Shown here one piece after another: positions 9,496 through 18,907 of a stretch of 59,886 bases of DNA. How positions within the stretch are numbered: the first letter of the stretch is position 1; each line of letters opens with the position of its first letter. This DNA is from Chromobacterium piscinae. GTDB taxonomy: Bacteria > Pseudomonadota > Gammaproteobacteria > Burkholderiales > Chromobacteriaceae. The DNA is taken from positions 1 through 59,886 of the forward strand of contig NZ_JAJOHV010000067.1 in assembly GCF_021129175.1 (NCBI RefSeq), written 5' to 3'. A program made the position numbers and the translations under genes. Under the pieces are notes generated by a model. The model ran no database searches, was not told the DNA's origin, and saw only the letters and a program-made list of their open reading frames with translations.

Positions 9496-10419
9496 ATGAC
9501 GTCCGTAAGGCATTACCTTCAGTTCAGCGACCTTTCTCCCGACGAGTACCATCATCTCTTCGAGCGAAGCCGGGTTCTGAAGCGACGACAAAGCGCCGGC
9601 GAGTTGCATCGGCCGCTGGTCGGCAAGGTGATGTCCATGGTGTTCGAAAAGAATTCCACCCGTACCCGCGTCTCTTTCGAGGCCGGCATGGCGCAGCTGG
9701 GCGGCCACGCGATGTTCCTGGACACCAAGAGCTCGCAGATCGGCCGCGGCGAGCCGATCGAGGACACGGCGCGCGTGCTGTCCCGGATGAGCGACATCAT
9801 CATGATCCGGACCTTCGAGCAGGGCCTGGTCGAGCGGCTGGCCGCGCATTCCCGCGCGCCGGTGATCAATGGCCTGACCAACGAGTACCACCCGTGCCAG
9901 ATATTGGCCGACATCTTCACCTATGTGGAGCGGCGCGGTTCGATCAAGGGCAAGACCGTTGCCTGGATCGGCGACGGCAACAATGTATGCCGCACCTGGC
10001 TGCAGGCCGCGCGCGTGCTCGGCTTCAAGCTGAGGGTAGCGTCGCCGCTTGGTTACGAGCTGAAGCCGCTGGACGGCCATTATTACGGCTCGGACGTGCT
10101 GGAACTGACCCAGGATCCGGTACGCGCCGCGCATGGCGCCGACATCGTCACCACCGACGTGTTCACCAGCATGGGCTTCGAGGCCGAGCAGAAGGCCCGC
10201 CAGGAGGCTTTCTCCGGCTACCAGGTGACGGCGGAGCTGATGAAGCATGCCAAACCGGACGCGCTGTTCCTGCACTGCCTGCCCGCGCATCGCGGCGAGG
10301 AGGTGGCGGCCGAGGTGATAGACGGTCCGCAGAGCGTGGTCTGGGAAGAGGCTGAAAACCGCATGCACGTGCAAAAGGCCCTGATCGAATATCTGTTGCT
10401 GGGGCACCGCGAGGACTGA
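9496..10419 (+). CDS. argF: Ornithine carbamoyltransferase
   Basis: A 307-residue cytoplasmic enzyme converting ornithine and carbamoyl phosphate to citrulline, step six of arginine synthesis. The carbamoyl phosphate loop [12 protein letters not shown] lies at about residues 52-63, HPCQILAD in the middle and the ornithine loop [11 protein letters not shown] near the end; all are intact. The start [13 protein letters not shown] was chosen because it matches the family start and has GGAG upstream; in-frame ATGs further upstream lie inside the leader hairpin. Length is normal. It is followed 47 bases later by argG, forming an arginine unit. Confidence 0.96.
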
Positions 10420-10466
10420 GTCCCGCCCGGCAATCGATAAACAAACAACGAGTGGAAAGAGAAGCA

Positions 10467-11693
<1,227 letters not shown>

Positions 11694-14484: not shown

Positions 14485-14513
14485 ATTGCAAAATGCCGGC
14501 TTCGGTCCCATCT
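14485..14513 (+). promoter_or_regulatory. Candidate sigma32 (heat-shock) promoter for the BPH-hslO operon
   Basis: ATTGCAA at 14485-14491 matches five of seven positions of the sigma32 -35 CTTGAAA, and TCCCATCT at 14506-14513 matches seven of eight of the -10 CCCCATNT, with a 14-base spacer, within the accepted range. It lies about 38 bases before the BPH start codon. Consensus is recalled from E. coli; function is inferred. The surrounding gap 14397-14550 holds no gene. Confidence 0.5.
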
Positions 14514-14532
14514 TGAAGGACTGTTTTCAAGA
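14511..14532 (+). repeat. Inverted repeat at the expected BPH transcript start
   Basis: TCTTGAA (14511-14517) and TTCAAGA (14526-14532) form perfect 7-bp arms with an 8-base spacer, 18 bases before the BPH start. It could be a regulator site or a 5' RNA hairpin affecting translation. Confidence 0.5.
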
Positions 14533-14550
14533 ATATGACAAGGTAGCCGC

Positions 14551-15141
14551 ATGACAACCATCGTGGCCGTGCGCAAGGGCGACCAGATCGCCATCGCCGC
14601 CGACAGCCAGACCACTTTCGGCGACGATCAGAAGCTTCTCGCGCCGTACGACTGTTTCCACAACAAGATTTTCCGCCACGGCGACAACTATCTGGCCGTG
14701 TCCGGCTCCGCAGCGCACGACCTGGTGCTGCAGGGCGCGTTGAAAGAGCTGAAGAAAAAGGATTTGAGCAGCCGCCAGGGCATCTTCGAAACCTTCCGCA
14801 AGCTTCACCCCAAGCTGAAAGACGCGTTCTATCTGCGTCCGGAGGAAGATGAAGAAGATCCGTACGAATCCAGCCAGATGATGGTGGTGATCGCGAACGC
14901 GCACGGCATTTTCGGCGTGTATCCGATGCGCGAGATCTACGAATTCTCCCGCATCTGGGCAATCGGTTCGGGCCGCAAGTTCGCGATGGGCGCGATGCAC
15001 GCGGTCTACGACCAGGATCTGTCCGCCCGGGAAATCGCCGAAATCGGCGTGCGCGCCGGCTGCGAATTCGACGTCAGCTCCTCGCTGCCGATGTCTGTCT
15101 ACACCGTTGAAGCGGCCGCCGGGGCGGCCAAGGAAGCATGA
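14551..15141 (+). CDS. bph: Proteasome-like Ntn-hydrolase, BPH type (betaproteobacteria proteasome homologue)
   Basis: A 196-residue HslV/proteasome-fold protein. After removal of the first Met, the N-terminus TTIVAVRKGDQIAIAADSQTT closely parallels HslV (TTIVSVRR...GDGQAT): the nucleophile is Thr1, Asp17 is in place, and Lys38 in HNKIF sits where HslV has Lys33 after a five-residue insertion. SGSAAHDLVLQGAL matches the HslV GFAGG region. The family would form a double-ring threonine peptidase. It is not HslV itself: the sequence is longer between the core strands and no hslU ATPase is adjacent. Its TGA overlaps the ATG of hslO (ATGA), so the two are one operon. Activity, partner ATPase and substrates are unknown. 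Confidence 0.85.
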   Translation: MTTIVAVRKGDQIAIAADSQTTFGDDQKLLAPYDCFHNKIFRHGDNYLAVSGSAAHDLVLQGALKELKKKDLSSRQGIFETFRKLHPKLKDAFYLRPEEDEEDPYESSQMMVVIANAHGIFGVYPMREIYEFSRIWAIGSGRKFAMGAMHAVYDQDLSAREIAEIGVRAGCEFDVSSSLPMSVYTVEAAAGAAKEA

Positions 15142-16022
15142 ATATGAACCATCACGACAAACTGCAACGATTCCTGTTCGACGGCGCGCCGGCGCGCGGC
15201 GCGCTGGTGCGCCTGGACGGCGCCTGGCAGCAGGTGCTGGCGCGGCGGGCCTACCCGCAGGCGCTCAAGACCGTGCTGGGCGAGATGATGGCGGCCTCGG
15301 TGCTGATGGCGGCCAACTTGAAGTTCGACGGTTCGCTGATTCTGCAGATCCACGGCACCGGCGCGCTGAAGCTGGCGGTGGTCGAGTGCAACAACGACCG
15401 CACCGTGCGCGCCACCGCCAAGTGGGATGGCGAGCTGGATGACAAGCCGCTGGCCGAGCTGCTGGGCGAGGGCGGCAAATTCGTGCTGACGCTGGAGCCG
15501 CGTCTGGACAAGAACCAGACCTGGCAAGGCATCGTGGCGCTGGAGGGAGATTCCGTCGCCCGGATGCTGGAAAACTACATGCTGCGCTCCGAGCAGCTGG
15601 ACACCGCGCTGATCCTGGCCAGCGGCGGCAATACCGCCGCCGGCATGCTGCTGCAGCGTCTGCCGGAAGGCCATGGCGAGGCCGAGGGCTGGGATCGCGT
15701 CCAGATGCTGGGCCGCACGCTGAAGGCGGAAGAGCTGCTGGAGCTGGGCGCCGAGGACATTCTGCATCGTCTGTTCCATGAGGAGCAGGTGCGGGTGTTC
15801 GAGCAGGAAACCGTCAGCTTCAACTGCAACTGCTCGCGCGAGCGCGTCAGCAATATGCTGACCATGCTGGGCGGCCAGGAAGTGGGCGATGTGCTGCTGG
15901 AGCAGGGAAGCGTGGAAATCGTCTGCGACTACTGCAACCAGCGTTATGTGTTCGATGAGGAAGACGTCAACCAGTTGTTCGACTACGACGTGGTGGCGGC
16001 GGCGCGCGAAGCGCGCCATTAA
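15138..16022 (+). CDS. hslO: Redox-regulated chaperone Hsp33
   Basis: A 294-residue holdase chaperone activated by oxidation and unfolding. The C-terminal zinc centre is intact: CNC at Cys230 and Cys232, and CDYC at Cys263 and Cys266, the CxC-x(27-32)-CxxC arrangement of Hsp33. GEMMAASVLMAANLKFDG and GALKLAVVECNNDRTVRATAKW are typical core blocks. The start overlaps the BPH stop by four bases. Pairing a chaperone that holds oxidised, unfolded proteins with a proteasome-like peptidase suggests joint heat/oxidative stress control. A terminator follows. Confidence 0.96.
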   Translation: MNMNHHDKLQRFLFDGAPARGALVRLDGAWQQVLARRAYPQALKTVLGEMMAASVLMAANLKFDGSLILQIHGTGALKLAVVECNNDRTVRATAKWDGELDDKPLAELLGEGGKFVLTLEPRLDKNQTWQGIVALEGDSVARMLENYMLRSEQLDTALILASGGNTAAGMLLQRLPEGHGEAEGWDRVQMLGRTLKAEELLELGAEDILHRLFHEEQVRVFEQETVSFNCNCSRERVSNMLTMLGGQEVGDVLLEQGSVEIVCDYCNQRYVFDEEDVNQLFDYDVVAAAREARH

Positions 16023-16040
16023 TGCCCGCAACTTCCGTTC

Positions 16041-16067
16041 AAAAAAGCCGCGCATGCGGCTTTTTTT
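16041..16067 (+). terminator. Rho-independent terminator after hslO
   Basis: A perfect 11-bp stem with six-A and seven-T flanks and a GCAT loop lies 18 bases after the hslO stop. Confidence 0.93.
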
Positions 16068-16234: not shown

Positions 16235-18907
16235 ATGAATACAACAACACTACCGCGTCGGTATCGGGCGTGGGGACTTTCCGTGATGGTGCCGCTGGCC
16301 TTGTCCGCTTGCCTGACGACGACAGGCGGCGAACAAGCCGGCGTGCAGCAACCCGCGCCTCAGGCCAATCAGCCCAGCGCGCGCTATTCCTCCCACTCTC
16401 CGGCCTTGTCGGAAAAACCGGATTACCCGCACGGCCTGCCGCCGGCTGCGCCGGATAACGGCGGCGCGCAGCCGCCGGCCAAACCTCAGGGCCAGCAAGG
16501 CCAGATCGCGCGCAAGGCGGCCCGGATGGATGTCGCCGCGCCGGCCTATGCCGACTGCGACGAGGCCAAGCTCGGCCAGCTGTCCGGCCAGGCGCTGGTG
16601 CGTTACGTGGCCAGCGTGGACGGCACTTGCATGAACCGCCTGTTCCAGGCGGACAACTTCAGCTACCGCGTGGTGTCGCCGGCCAATATGCAGCTGGTGG
16701 CGGCCGAAGCGCGCCAACGCGCGACCGCCTGGGATGGGCAGAACGCCAATGGCCTGTGGCCGCTGGCGGTGTTCCTGAAGGCGGGTTACTTCCTGCAGTA
16801 CAGCCACGCCAAGGAAGTGGGCGACTACGGCCCGGCAGTGGATCAGCCGGTGATGCAGGTGGTGGAGGCGATGGCCGCCAATCCGGCGCTGTGGAACGTC
16901 AAGGCCATCGACAGCCGCGGCGACCGCGACGCCTGGTTCCGCGAGCGCGATGCTAGGCAGAGCGTGGCGGAAACGCTGATCCTGGCCGATTCGGTGCGCA
17001 AGGCCGAGTATGCGCTGCCGCTGCTGAACCGCTTCTTCGGCCGCTACAACGCCGCCGCCAAGGATAATTGGGCGCGCTTCGCGCTGCATCCGATGCAGAC
17101 GCTGCTGTTCAATATGCATTACCAGCCCGAGTTCGCCCAGAAGGTGGAAAAGGGCCAGCTCGACGGACTGGTGGCCAGCCTGGCAGGGCTGACTCGCGCC
17201 GGCCAGCCGGCTTTCGCCGACGAGCAGATGTTCCTCAACACCCTGCGCGAAACCGGCCGCTTCATGCAATACCCGCGCACCGCGCCGCAAGCTGAATCCG
17301 CCGTCGCCCTGCATCTGAAGGGCGAGAAGTTCGGCGCCGCCTGGGCCGAGGCCGTGTACGCGCTGAAGAAGATGGGCAAGGTGCCGTGCGAACGCTACGG
17401 CATCTGCCAGGCCGAGCAGGAGCTGCGCGCCAGCCTGTTCCCCAACCGCTGGAGCTTCGACAACGGCAAGCTGGTGTTCGAAACCCCGCTGAGCCTGGCC
17501 GAGGTGGAGCCGCTGTACTATGCGATGAAGCAAGTGCAGACCCAGCTGTTCCGCGTGGCCGGCACCAAGGAGGCGGTGGCGAACGATCCCAATGAAAAGC
17601 TGAAGATGGTGATCTACGGCACCAAGACCGCCTACCAGCGTTTCCAGGGCCTGCTCAATGAGCTGTCCACCGACAACGGCGGCATCTACATCGAGAAGGA
17701 CGGCACTTTCTACACCTTCCAGCGCGAAGTCCCGCGCGAAAGCTATCTGACCCTGGAAGAGCTGGTGCGCCACGAGTATGTGCATTATCTGTCCGGCCGC
17801 TACATCCAGCCGGGCATGTGGGGCACGTCCGAGTTCTACCGCGACGACCGCCGCATGCCTTGGTACGACGAAGGCTTTGCCGAATTCATGGCCTGGAGCA
17901 CTTCGCGTGACGGCATCAAGGTGCGCGGCCACGTGGTGGACGTGGTGGCGAACGGCTGGCCGAACAGCTTCCTGGAGCCGTCCCGCATCATGCGCTCCAG
18001 CTATAGCGACGGCTGGGACTTCTACAGCCACTCCGCGCTGTGGTTCTACTATCTGAACCAGCAGCAGCCGGGCAAGATCGCCGACATCCTGGCCTCGCTG
18101 CGCGCCGACGACGTCAAGCGTTTCGACGCGCTGGTGAACAGCATGGGCGGCGACGCCGCGCTGGTGTCGGGTTTCCGCCAGTACGTGGATCAGCAGGTGC
18201 AGTTGGCCAAGTCCGGCCAGATGGGCAACACCTCCACCGCCGAAGGTGTGGACTGGGTGGCCAAGGACAAGTGGCAGGCCGGCGACGCTTCGGTGGTGGA
18301 AGCCGCGCTGCGCCGCTCTCTGCCGGTGGGCTGCCAGGTGTGGGCCGATGGCGAAACCAGCGCGCTGCGCCGCTTCGAGTGCGGCGGCACGTTGCCGCTG
18401 TCCGCCAGCGACAACACCCGCGCGCGCCAAGAGCTGGACAAGCTGCTGGACGGCGCGCTGCAGAGCCTGGTCAAGACCTCGGGCCTCAACAATCTGATGG
18501 CGACCAACTGCTCGGCCACCGACTACGACTTCAAGCGCAAGACCGCGGTGCTGCGCTGCGAAGGCCCGCTGGGCCCGGCCGGCAGCGCCAAGCCGCAGCC
18601 GCCGCAAACCGGCGAGCTGAACTTGGCCAAGCTGAGCTACGGCGGCCCGGCGCGCTGCTTGCGCGGCCAGTTTGAAGGCGTGGGCGGCGTCGAGCGCTAC
18701 CAACTGGTGCAAGCGCCGCAGCTGGGCCGCGCGGCGGTGTCCGACTGGGGTTCGTTCACCTATCGCCGCGACCTCGACCAACCGGGCGTGGCCGACAAGA
18801 TGACCGTCCGTCTCAGCAAGGGCGCGCTGGTGCGCGATGTGGTGGTGGAGCTGAACGCTACCCCGCGCGACATGCCTGAAGAGCAGTGCTGGGCGCAGGC
18901 GGGTTGA
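16235..18907 (+). CDS. M9 family microbial collagenase, lipoprotein
   Basis: An 890-residue metalloprotease of the Vibrio-type M9 collagenases, which cut triple-helical collagen and gelatin. The N-terminus ends in VPLALSAC, a lipobox, followed by a proline/glutamine-rich linker to about residue 95. The activator-like M9 N domain runs roughly 105-420 and the peptidase domain 430-660, with zinc site HEYVH at 513-517 and the third ligand Glu546 in EGFAEFMAWS. No PKD or collagen-binding PPC repeats are obvious in the last 200 residues, unlike clostridial enzymes. It is a plausible virulence or scavenging factor. Transcribed alone, ending at a shared terminator. Confidence 0.93.
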   Translation: MNTTTLPRRYRAWGLSVMVPLALSACLTTTGGEQAGVQQPAPQANQPSARYSSHSPALSEKPDYPHGLPPAAPDNGGAQPPAKPQGQQGQIARKAARMDVAAPAYADCDEAKLGQLSGQALVRYVASVDGTCMNRLFQADNFSYRVVSPANMQLVAAEARQRATAWDGQNANGLWPLAVFLKAGYFLQYSHAKEVGDYGPAVDQPVMQVVEAMAANPALWNVKAIDSRGDRDAWFRERDARQSVAETLILADSVRKAEYALPLLNRFFGRYNAAAKDNWARFALHPMQTLLFNMHYQPEFAQKVEKGQLDGLVASLAGLTRAGQPAFADEQMFLNTLRETGRFMQYPRTAPQAESAVALHLKGEKFGAAWAEAVYALKKMGKVPCERYGICQAEQELRASLFPNRWSFDNGKLVFETPLSLAEVEPLYYAMKQVQTQLFRVAGTKEAVANDPNEKLKMVIYGTKTAYQRFQGLLNELSTDNGGIYIEKDGTFYTFQREVPRESYLTLEELVRHEYVHYLSGRYIQPGMWGTSEFYRDDRRMPWYDEGFAEFMAWSTSRDGIKVRGHVVDVVANGWPNSFLEPSRIMRSSYSDGWDFYSHSALWFYYLNQQQPGKIADILASLRADDVKRFDALVNSMGGDAALVSGFRQYVDQQVQLAKSGQMGNTSTAEGVDWVAKDKWQAGDASVVEAALRRSLPVGCQVWADGETSALRRFECGGTLPLSASDNTRARQELDKLLDGALQSLVKTSGLNNLMATNCSATDYDFKRKTAVLRCEGPLGPAGSAKPQPPQTGELNLAKLSYGGPARCLRGQFEGVGGVERYQLVQAPQLGRAAVSDWGSFTYRRDLDQPGVADKMTVRLSKGALVRDVVVELNATPRDMPEEQCWAQAG

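Follow-up and report, generated by a model that had tools for sequence, protein, structure and literature searches.

The window (the whole 59,886-nucleotide stretch of Chromobacterium piscinae DNA that was analysed) carries two plus-strand open reading frames, for a betaproteobacterial proteasome homologue (BPH) and for the redox chaperone Hsp33 (hslO), with a promoter-like motif on one side of the pair and a terminator on the other (Table 1). The four bases ATGA at 15138-15141 are common to the end of BPH and the start of hslO, which confirms the four-base overlap described in the initial annotation. An alternative in-frame hslO start at 15144 is better spaced from the AAGGA and would leave a 2-nt gap. 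BPH and hslO are close-coupled neighbours whichever hslO start applies. Directly beyond the hslO terminator (window 16235-18907) lies an M9 collagenase-type peptidase (PF08453, PF01752), and 8 of the 11 named loci of Chromobacterium type likewise carry such a gene 3' of hslO.

Table 1. Features of the BPH-hslO locus, in window coordinates
Feature	Position	Strand	Basis
sigma32 (RpoH)-like motif TTGCAA-N15-CCCATCT, 5' of BPH	14486..14513	+	pattern match, alignment of loci
BPH (betaproteobacterial proteasome homologue), 196 aa incl. Met; Thr1, Asp17, Lys38, Gly51, Ser139; acidic loop EEDEEDPYESS	14551..15141	+	sequence comparison
Shine-Dalgarno-like AAGGA for hslO, within BPH 3' end	15130..15134	+	sequence reading
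hslO, Hsp33 redox chaperone, 294 aa, C-X-C ... C-X-X-C zinc/redox motif; alternative start ATG 15144	15138..16022	+	profile matches
Intrinsic terminator, directly 3' of hslO	16041..16066	+	terminator scan, RNA fold

We compared the first protein with the solved BPH chains and with HslV. It matched 5ovu_A (E 3e-54 over 190 residues) and 5ovs_A (E 4.6e-39), its best HslV match was far weaker (E 3.8e-5), and it fell short of two NCBIfam HslV cut-offs by 97 and 119 bits (39.5 bits against 137, and 38.3 against 157.75). Judged by these matches it is a true BPH, as had been proposed from the DNA alone, and not an HslV. The proposed active site was also borne out: Thr1, Asp17 and Lys38 align with Thr1, Asp17 and Lys33 of HslV, so that the Lys33 equivalent is Lys38 here (Lys37 in Td-BPH; PMC5777263). 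The Asp and Lys were retained in all of the 133 aligned BPHs, and Thr1 in 127 of them, with Ser in the other six. A long acidic pore loop is present (PEEDEEDPYESS), where the HslV alignment shows a gap. Estimated crudely and without gaps from five close relatives, the dN/dS of BPH was 0.027-0.046, and the crude values for hslO were 0.079-0.227, with BPH lower in 5/5 comparisons. By this estimate BPH is under strong purifying selection.

The hslO product scored 255 bits against PF01430 and 287.7 bits against the NCBIfam HslO equivalog (cut-off 244), and with its redox motif present it is classed as a regular Hsp33. The cysteine motif was retained in 157 of 159 HslO rows adjacent to BPH (rows that overlap in genomes), and both misses came from one genome cut at a contig end. 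It was equally retained in 40/40 HslO not beside BPH, loci that were hand-picked from the listed best HslO matches (20 BPH-negative and 20 BPH-positive genomes). When the adjacent (n=63) and non-adjacent (n=40) sequences were compared, a single column, residue 180, distinguished them at a threshold of our own setting, and we rejected this one column as a docking signature.

We then surveyed the spread of the pair. BPH was found in 60 of the 61 genomes of the window's family (f1), the lone miss (G025) being probably a contig gap. Across the order, 152 of 399 sampled genomes had it, spread over 28 families. The 140 BPH loci fetched comprised 20 from f1 and 120 from the 139 BPH-positive genomes of other families (the 19 left out include both f6 genomes); score cut-offs and adjacency thresholds were set by us. 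On the same strand, hslO follows BPH directly in 57 of these loci and after a YhcH/DUF386 gene in six; one locus ends at a contig edge, and 76 are without hslO at that place. BPH was followed by hslO in all loci of f1 (20/20), f5 (12/12), f14 (3/3), f22 (10/10) and f32 (5/5), in 8/11 of f38, and in f51 in 5/5 loci that had flank, a further one lying at a contig end. The order BPH-hslO was thus seen in 7 of the 27 examined families, and in none of 20 further families. The initial annotation had suspected a meaningful link between the two genes, and the adjacency, spanning seven families and not only close relatives, bears this out. With short loci added, adjacency was seen in all 50 f1 genomes examined (of 60 BPH-positive), the 4-nt overlap being identical in 35, and therefore we do not attribute the pair to chance. 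A wider sample of the class had a BPH match at E <= 0.001 in 51 of 369 genomes (the window's own included, several weak); no hslO was within the flank in the 29 BPH loci from other orders of the class, one of these flanks being only 279 nt.

The pairing itself is already known. Fuchs et al. 2017 gave argG, pyruvate dehydrogenase and Hsp33 as BPH contexts, with Laribacter hongkongensis for the last (PMC5777263), where the same gene pair forms one operon. It is the one BPH-Hsp33 example in their main text, and no family-wide survey was found in the sections consulted. What the present survey adds is the extent of the pairing. The BPHs of Thiobacillus denitrificans and Cupriavidus metallidurans (5OVS/5OVT/5OVU; PMC5777263) belong to the same family over their full length and share the active-site residues, the acidic loop and the absence of an adjacent ATPase, although they stand in the argG and PDC contexts and the window's BPH stands with hslO. 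For the new homologues of a 2021 survey, the part of that paper on them gives no telling genomic context.

No ATPase adjoins BPH in the window; its neighbour is hslO. The absence of an adjacent hslU or other ATPase had been noted at the outset and was upheld; hslU sits beside hslV elsewhere in the same genome, on contig C48. Since the genome encodes hslV-hslU elsewhere, BPH is no stand-in for a missing HslVU. HslVU is homologous to BPH and has the same catalytic residues; it differs in the weak match and the loop gap mentioned above and in being separately encoded here. In E. coli, HslVU is a heat-shock gene.

BPH might still be the partner of a general ATPase (HslU, ClpX or another), the link to hslO being merely regulatory. 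HslU scored over its cut-off in 66 of the 71 BPH genomes of the block families, as would suit such a partnership; however, four genomes retained BPH although no HslU of theirs reached the cut-off, namely G260 (single contig), G127 (8 contigs), G060 (160 contigs) and G420, and a fifth genome, G215, had a contig-end fragment. In G260, G127 and G060 the BPH-hslO pair was present. Published pull-downs from C. metallidurans, made with and without nucleotide, gave no partner and did not find HslU, and Fuchs et al. 2017 report no candidate ATPase (PMC5777263). A general ATPase partner is for us very unlikely, and an HslU-type ATPase as the sole partner of BPH is unlikely on the same two grounds.

To describe the 5' side of the pair, we scored the upstream region against the sigma32 consensus CTTGAAA-N(11-15)-CCCCATnT, as quoted in PMC6699477. 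The window's site matched at 11/14, and such sites are enriched across f1: at least 11/14 was reached in the 70-nt upstream stretch in 32 of 50 f1 loci, as against 0.35% of 6000 random window stretches, the f1 loci being mutually related and so not independent events. Elsewhere this level was reached in 2/6 loci of f51 and in 3/114 of other families, with none in f5, f14, f22 or f32, and outside f1 and part of f51 the motif is thus rare. When 200 nt upstream were scored, at least 11/14 was seen in 47% of 99 hslO-context loci vs 3.2% of shuffles, and in 9% of 34 argG, 7% of 14 Hsp15, 20% of 5 GluQ, 0/15 PDC and 0/9 other loci. When 28 loci from the genus and from its sister genus were aligned, window included, the site was recognisable in most, usually 54-85 nt before the BPH start; in several f1 loci the best site lay elsewhere (about -121 to -143) or was poor.

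The pattern TTGNAAN(12-16)CCCATNT, which was composed after the site had been seen and is therefore fitted to it, had 9 matches in the 5.0-Mb genome, the BPH site among them, and the reversed-pattern control had 1. One of the other eight, a 14/14 sigma32-type site, precedes what we take to be a peroxiredoxin-like gene (G000:C58:127622-127649, L332; named from its sequence), and the rest precede no recognised stress gene at its proper start. As positive controls in the same genome this peroxiredoxin site, dnaK (12/14, with a poor -10) and a presumably fxsA-like frame (8) made a weak set; a ClpB-like gene, read from a wrong start, was discounted. A palindrome, CTTGAA-N8-TTCAAG (14512-14531), was rejected as a candidate element, since among the aligned loci only the nearest relative, L012, keeps it.

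On the 3' side, the terminator scan gave 3 sites in the region vs 2.1 in shuffles and proves little by itself; the hairpin after hslO had a predicted fold of -15.1 kcal/mol (z -3.4), and a terminator-like site was found 3' of hslO in 27 of 36 f1 loci in our own scan, which had no shuffle control. With the sigma32-like motif 5' of BPH and the terminator-like hairpin after hslO, the unit is probably limited to BPH and hslO. It is also probably heat-shock controlled in the window's family, as far as the motif can tell. Against heat-shock control stands the wording 'constitutively expressed' in a section heading of Fuchs et al. 2017 (PMC5777263). Neither 'promoter' nor 'Hsp15' nor 'hslR' occurs in their main text. 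A literature search of open-licence papers found no expression or interaction data for the BPH-hslO pair; in the passages seen of two C. violaceum proteomics papers, one had Hsp33 in its reference list and the other had no mention of it.

BPH neighbours were clustered and then named with Pfam and NCBIfam. In most f38 loci the order is gluQ-BPH-hslO-Hsp15-like; f23 and f17 have BPH-Hsp15-like (with 2.4 kb between the two in one f23 locus), and f48 has gluQ 5' of BPH, mostly with another gene between. The Hsp15-like (hslR) gene has a Pfam S4 domain and scored 97 bits against the Hsp15 model (cut-off 148), and since this is below the cut-off, 'Hsp15-like' is the safer name. Among the 40 hslO loci not adjoining BPH, the Hsp15-like gene was found in 13, gluQ in 9 and both in 3; as these genes stand beside hslO in loci lacking a BPH neighbour, the chaperone block exists without BPH. 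We infer that BPH was inserted into a gluQ-hslO-hslR block. In E. coli, hslO likewise lies beside hslR (Hsp15-Hsp33), in the order hslR-hslO, which is reversed relative to the betaproteobacterial hslO-Hsp15-like pair, and to our knowledge the E. coli locus is without BPH. Plasmids bearing hslR together with hslO have been described (PMC9789031).

In two other contexts BPH stands apart from hslO. The argG context (34 loci, nine families) has argG 5' of BPH, mostly in the order argF-argG-ppnP-BPH-yajQ; the PDC context (15 loci, seven families) has aceE/aceF/lpd around BPH, and in four of its loci an overlapping marker frame hid the BPH label. We placed the contexts on a BPH tree of 133 rows, in which 8 rows and the window stand for f1, four named rows are included and rows that were short or broken are excluded. 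A single branch separates the PDC group from the remainder, and 2 changes are needed for the argG group. If unlabelled rows are ignored, the block/argG/PDC labels need 2 changes, the minimum possible, and the hslO versus non-hslO label needs 3. The hslO context occupies two places, a large clade of f1/f5/f14/f22/f32/f51, and f38. Rooting with HslV was rejected, as the HslV branch had 7-10 changes per column and joined inside one family. The chaperone block could be the ancestral context on this unrooted tree.

These contexts bear on whether the neighbourhood is passive, with BPH hitch-hiking in housekeeping operons (hslO, argG, PDC) and its adjacency to hslO functionally silent. The three contexts are dissimilar and each belongs to particular parts of the BPH tree, as a vertically inherited insertion would give. 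BPH-hslO nevertheless persists in seven families while the outer neighbours differ, and the window's family adds the sigma32-like motif and the tight spacing. We regard silent adjacency as improbable. Some functional link between BPH and hslO is suggested by the dN/dS of BPH, below that of hslO in every comparison, and by the retention of Thr1 in 53/53 hslO-context rows.

argF and argG themselves lie at window 9496-11693, 2.9 kb 5' of BPH. We rejected them as the relic of an argG-BPH operon, in the sense of a family trait, since both genes were absent from the 20 f1 loci fetched with 6-kb flanks and from 44 named hslO-type loci (flanks up to 8 kb, some contig-cut). The nearest relatives were read with 1.5-kb flanks only. 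One of them, L014, retains the transporter gene found after argG in the window, so that the upstream placement of argF-argG may be common to the closest species.

The initial annotation had gone further and proposed a dedicated two-part system, a stronger claim than that of Fuchs et al. We considered it as a machine in which Hsp33, as the oxidised holdase or in its reduced unfolding form, would hand clients directly to the BPH ring and replace an ATPase. Adjacency and overlap across seven families, a BPH without a known unfoldase and the redox motif of nearly all BPH-adjacent HslO rows are in keeping with such a hand-over. There is also a precedent, as Hsp33 targets EF-Tu for degradation by Lon and reduced Hsp33 unfolds EF-Tu (PMC8614738), although the same paper describes the opposite too, Hsp33 protecting EF-Tu under oxidative conditions, and a hand-over to Lon requires no genetic linkage. 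The published pull-downs came from a PDC-context and not an Hsp33-type species (PMC5777263), which leaves room for a partner in the latter.

HslO was found in 317 of the 399 genomes of the order. Both proteins occurred in 130 genomes, HslO without BPH in 187, BPH without HslO in 22 and neither in 60. This co-occurrence (odds ratio 1.9, p 0.02, ignoring relatedness) was set aside as too weak to count as evidence. The 22 of 152 BPH genomes in which HslO was not detected argue against a dedicated machine (three were rechecked: G082 and G304, both single-contig, and G141), as do the 187 genomes with HslO and no BPH. In G025, of the window's genus, neither gene was found, and we rejected a joint loss, since the contig that bears the downstream marker stops some 1.5 kb past that marker, at the expected operon site. 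The single distinguishing HslO column, the equal retention of the cysteines in HslO away from BPH, the argG and PDC contexts and the YhcH gene that splits the pair in six f5 genomes stand against it as well. In published assays, neither peptides nor casein were cleaved by purified BPH, and a role as an oxidative-stress protease was considered by Fuchs et al. 2017, who found carbonylation patterns unchanged (PMC5777263). The dedicated two-part system therefore lacks support, and we hold a direct hand-over to be unlikely.

Together, these results point to shared stress control over a dedicated two-part machine. As a whole, we find it reasonably likely that the locus is a compact sigma32-type unit whose products are co-expressed stress proteins working in parallel. 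The stretch 14486-16066 would then be a single transcription unit of two genes, driven by a heat-shock (sigma32)-type promoter and making BPH and Hsp33 together, and the coupling would keep their dosage together. BPH would be an intact self-compartmentalising threonine peptidase within the gluQ-hslO-hslR (Hsp15-like) chaperone block of betaproteobacteria. In the same stress, Hsp33 would hold unfolded or oxidised proteins, while BPH, presumably an acidic tetradecameric double ring that lacks a known unfoldase, would remove a narrow class of unfolded clients. Heat-shock induction, protease activity of BPH and action in parallel rather than jointly are what we infer. The Hsp33 context was independently linked to stress by Fuchs et al. 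2017 (PMC5777263).

Related to the proteasome and without an assigned job, BPH was inactive in the published assays considered here. The survey singles out a lineage for work on it, the Chromobacteriaceae type with a Thr1-type BPH coupled to hslO, predicts heat-shock control in that lineage and points out that the negative pull-down in print came from a different context; taken together, this makes BPH function directly testable. In Hsp33-type lineages, the component that BPH lacks, one that would feed and activate it without ATP, might be Hsp33, triggered by redox and heat and threading clients into the acidic ring. We see this as a long shot; if true, it would explain the in vitro inertness of BPHs from species with unlinked Hsp33.

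Some further neighbours were recorded. The YhcH/DUF386 gene that parts BPH and hslO in f5 (L089, L090, L092, L094, L097 and L105) is N-acetylneuraminate anomerase-like, below the cut-off of that model. A divergent class-II glutamine amidotransferase (PF13230) was seen 5' of BPH, mostly adjoining, in 18 f1 loci (L064-L081), and was not found upstream of BPH in L082 and L083.

We also looked at the first residue of BPH outside the hslO context. In the other orders of the class, all 29 BPHs read (L342-L370) start with Ser1, which agrees with the published Thr/Ser split; in the section concerned, Fuchs et al. 2017 place Ser1 only outside the Betaproteobacteria (PMC5777263). Inside the betaproteobacterial order, we observed Ser1 in L174, L167, L192, L195, L269, L271 and L274-L278, some of them from Rubrivivax/Burkholderiaceae/Burkholderiales metagenome records. 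Three f29 genomes (G175, G213 and G392) had two BPH matches each, and the copies read in G213 and G392 were Ser1 and lay outside the argG context.
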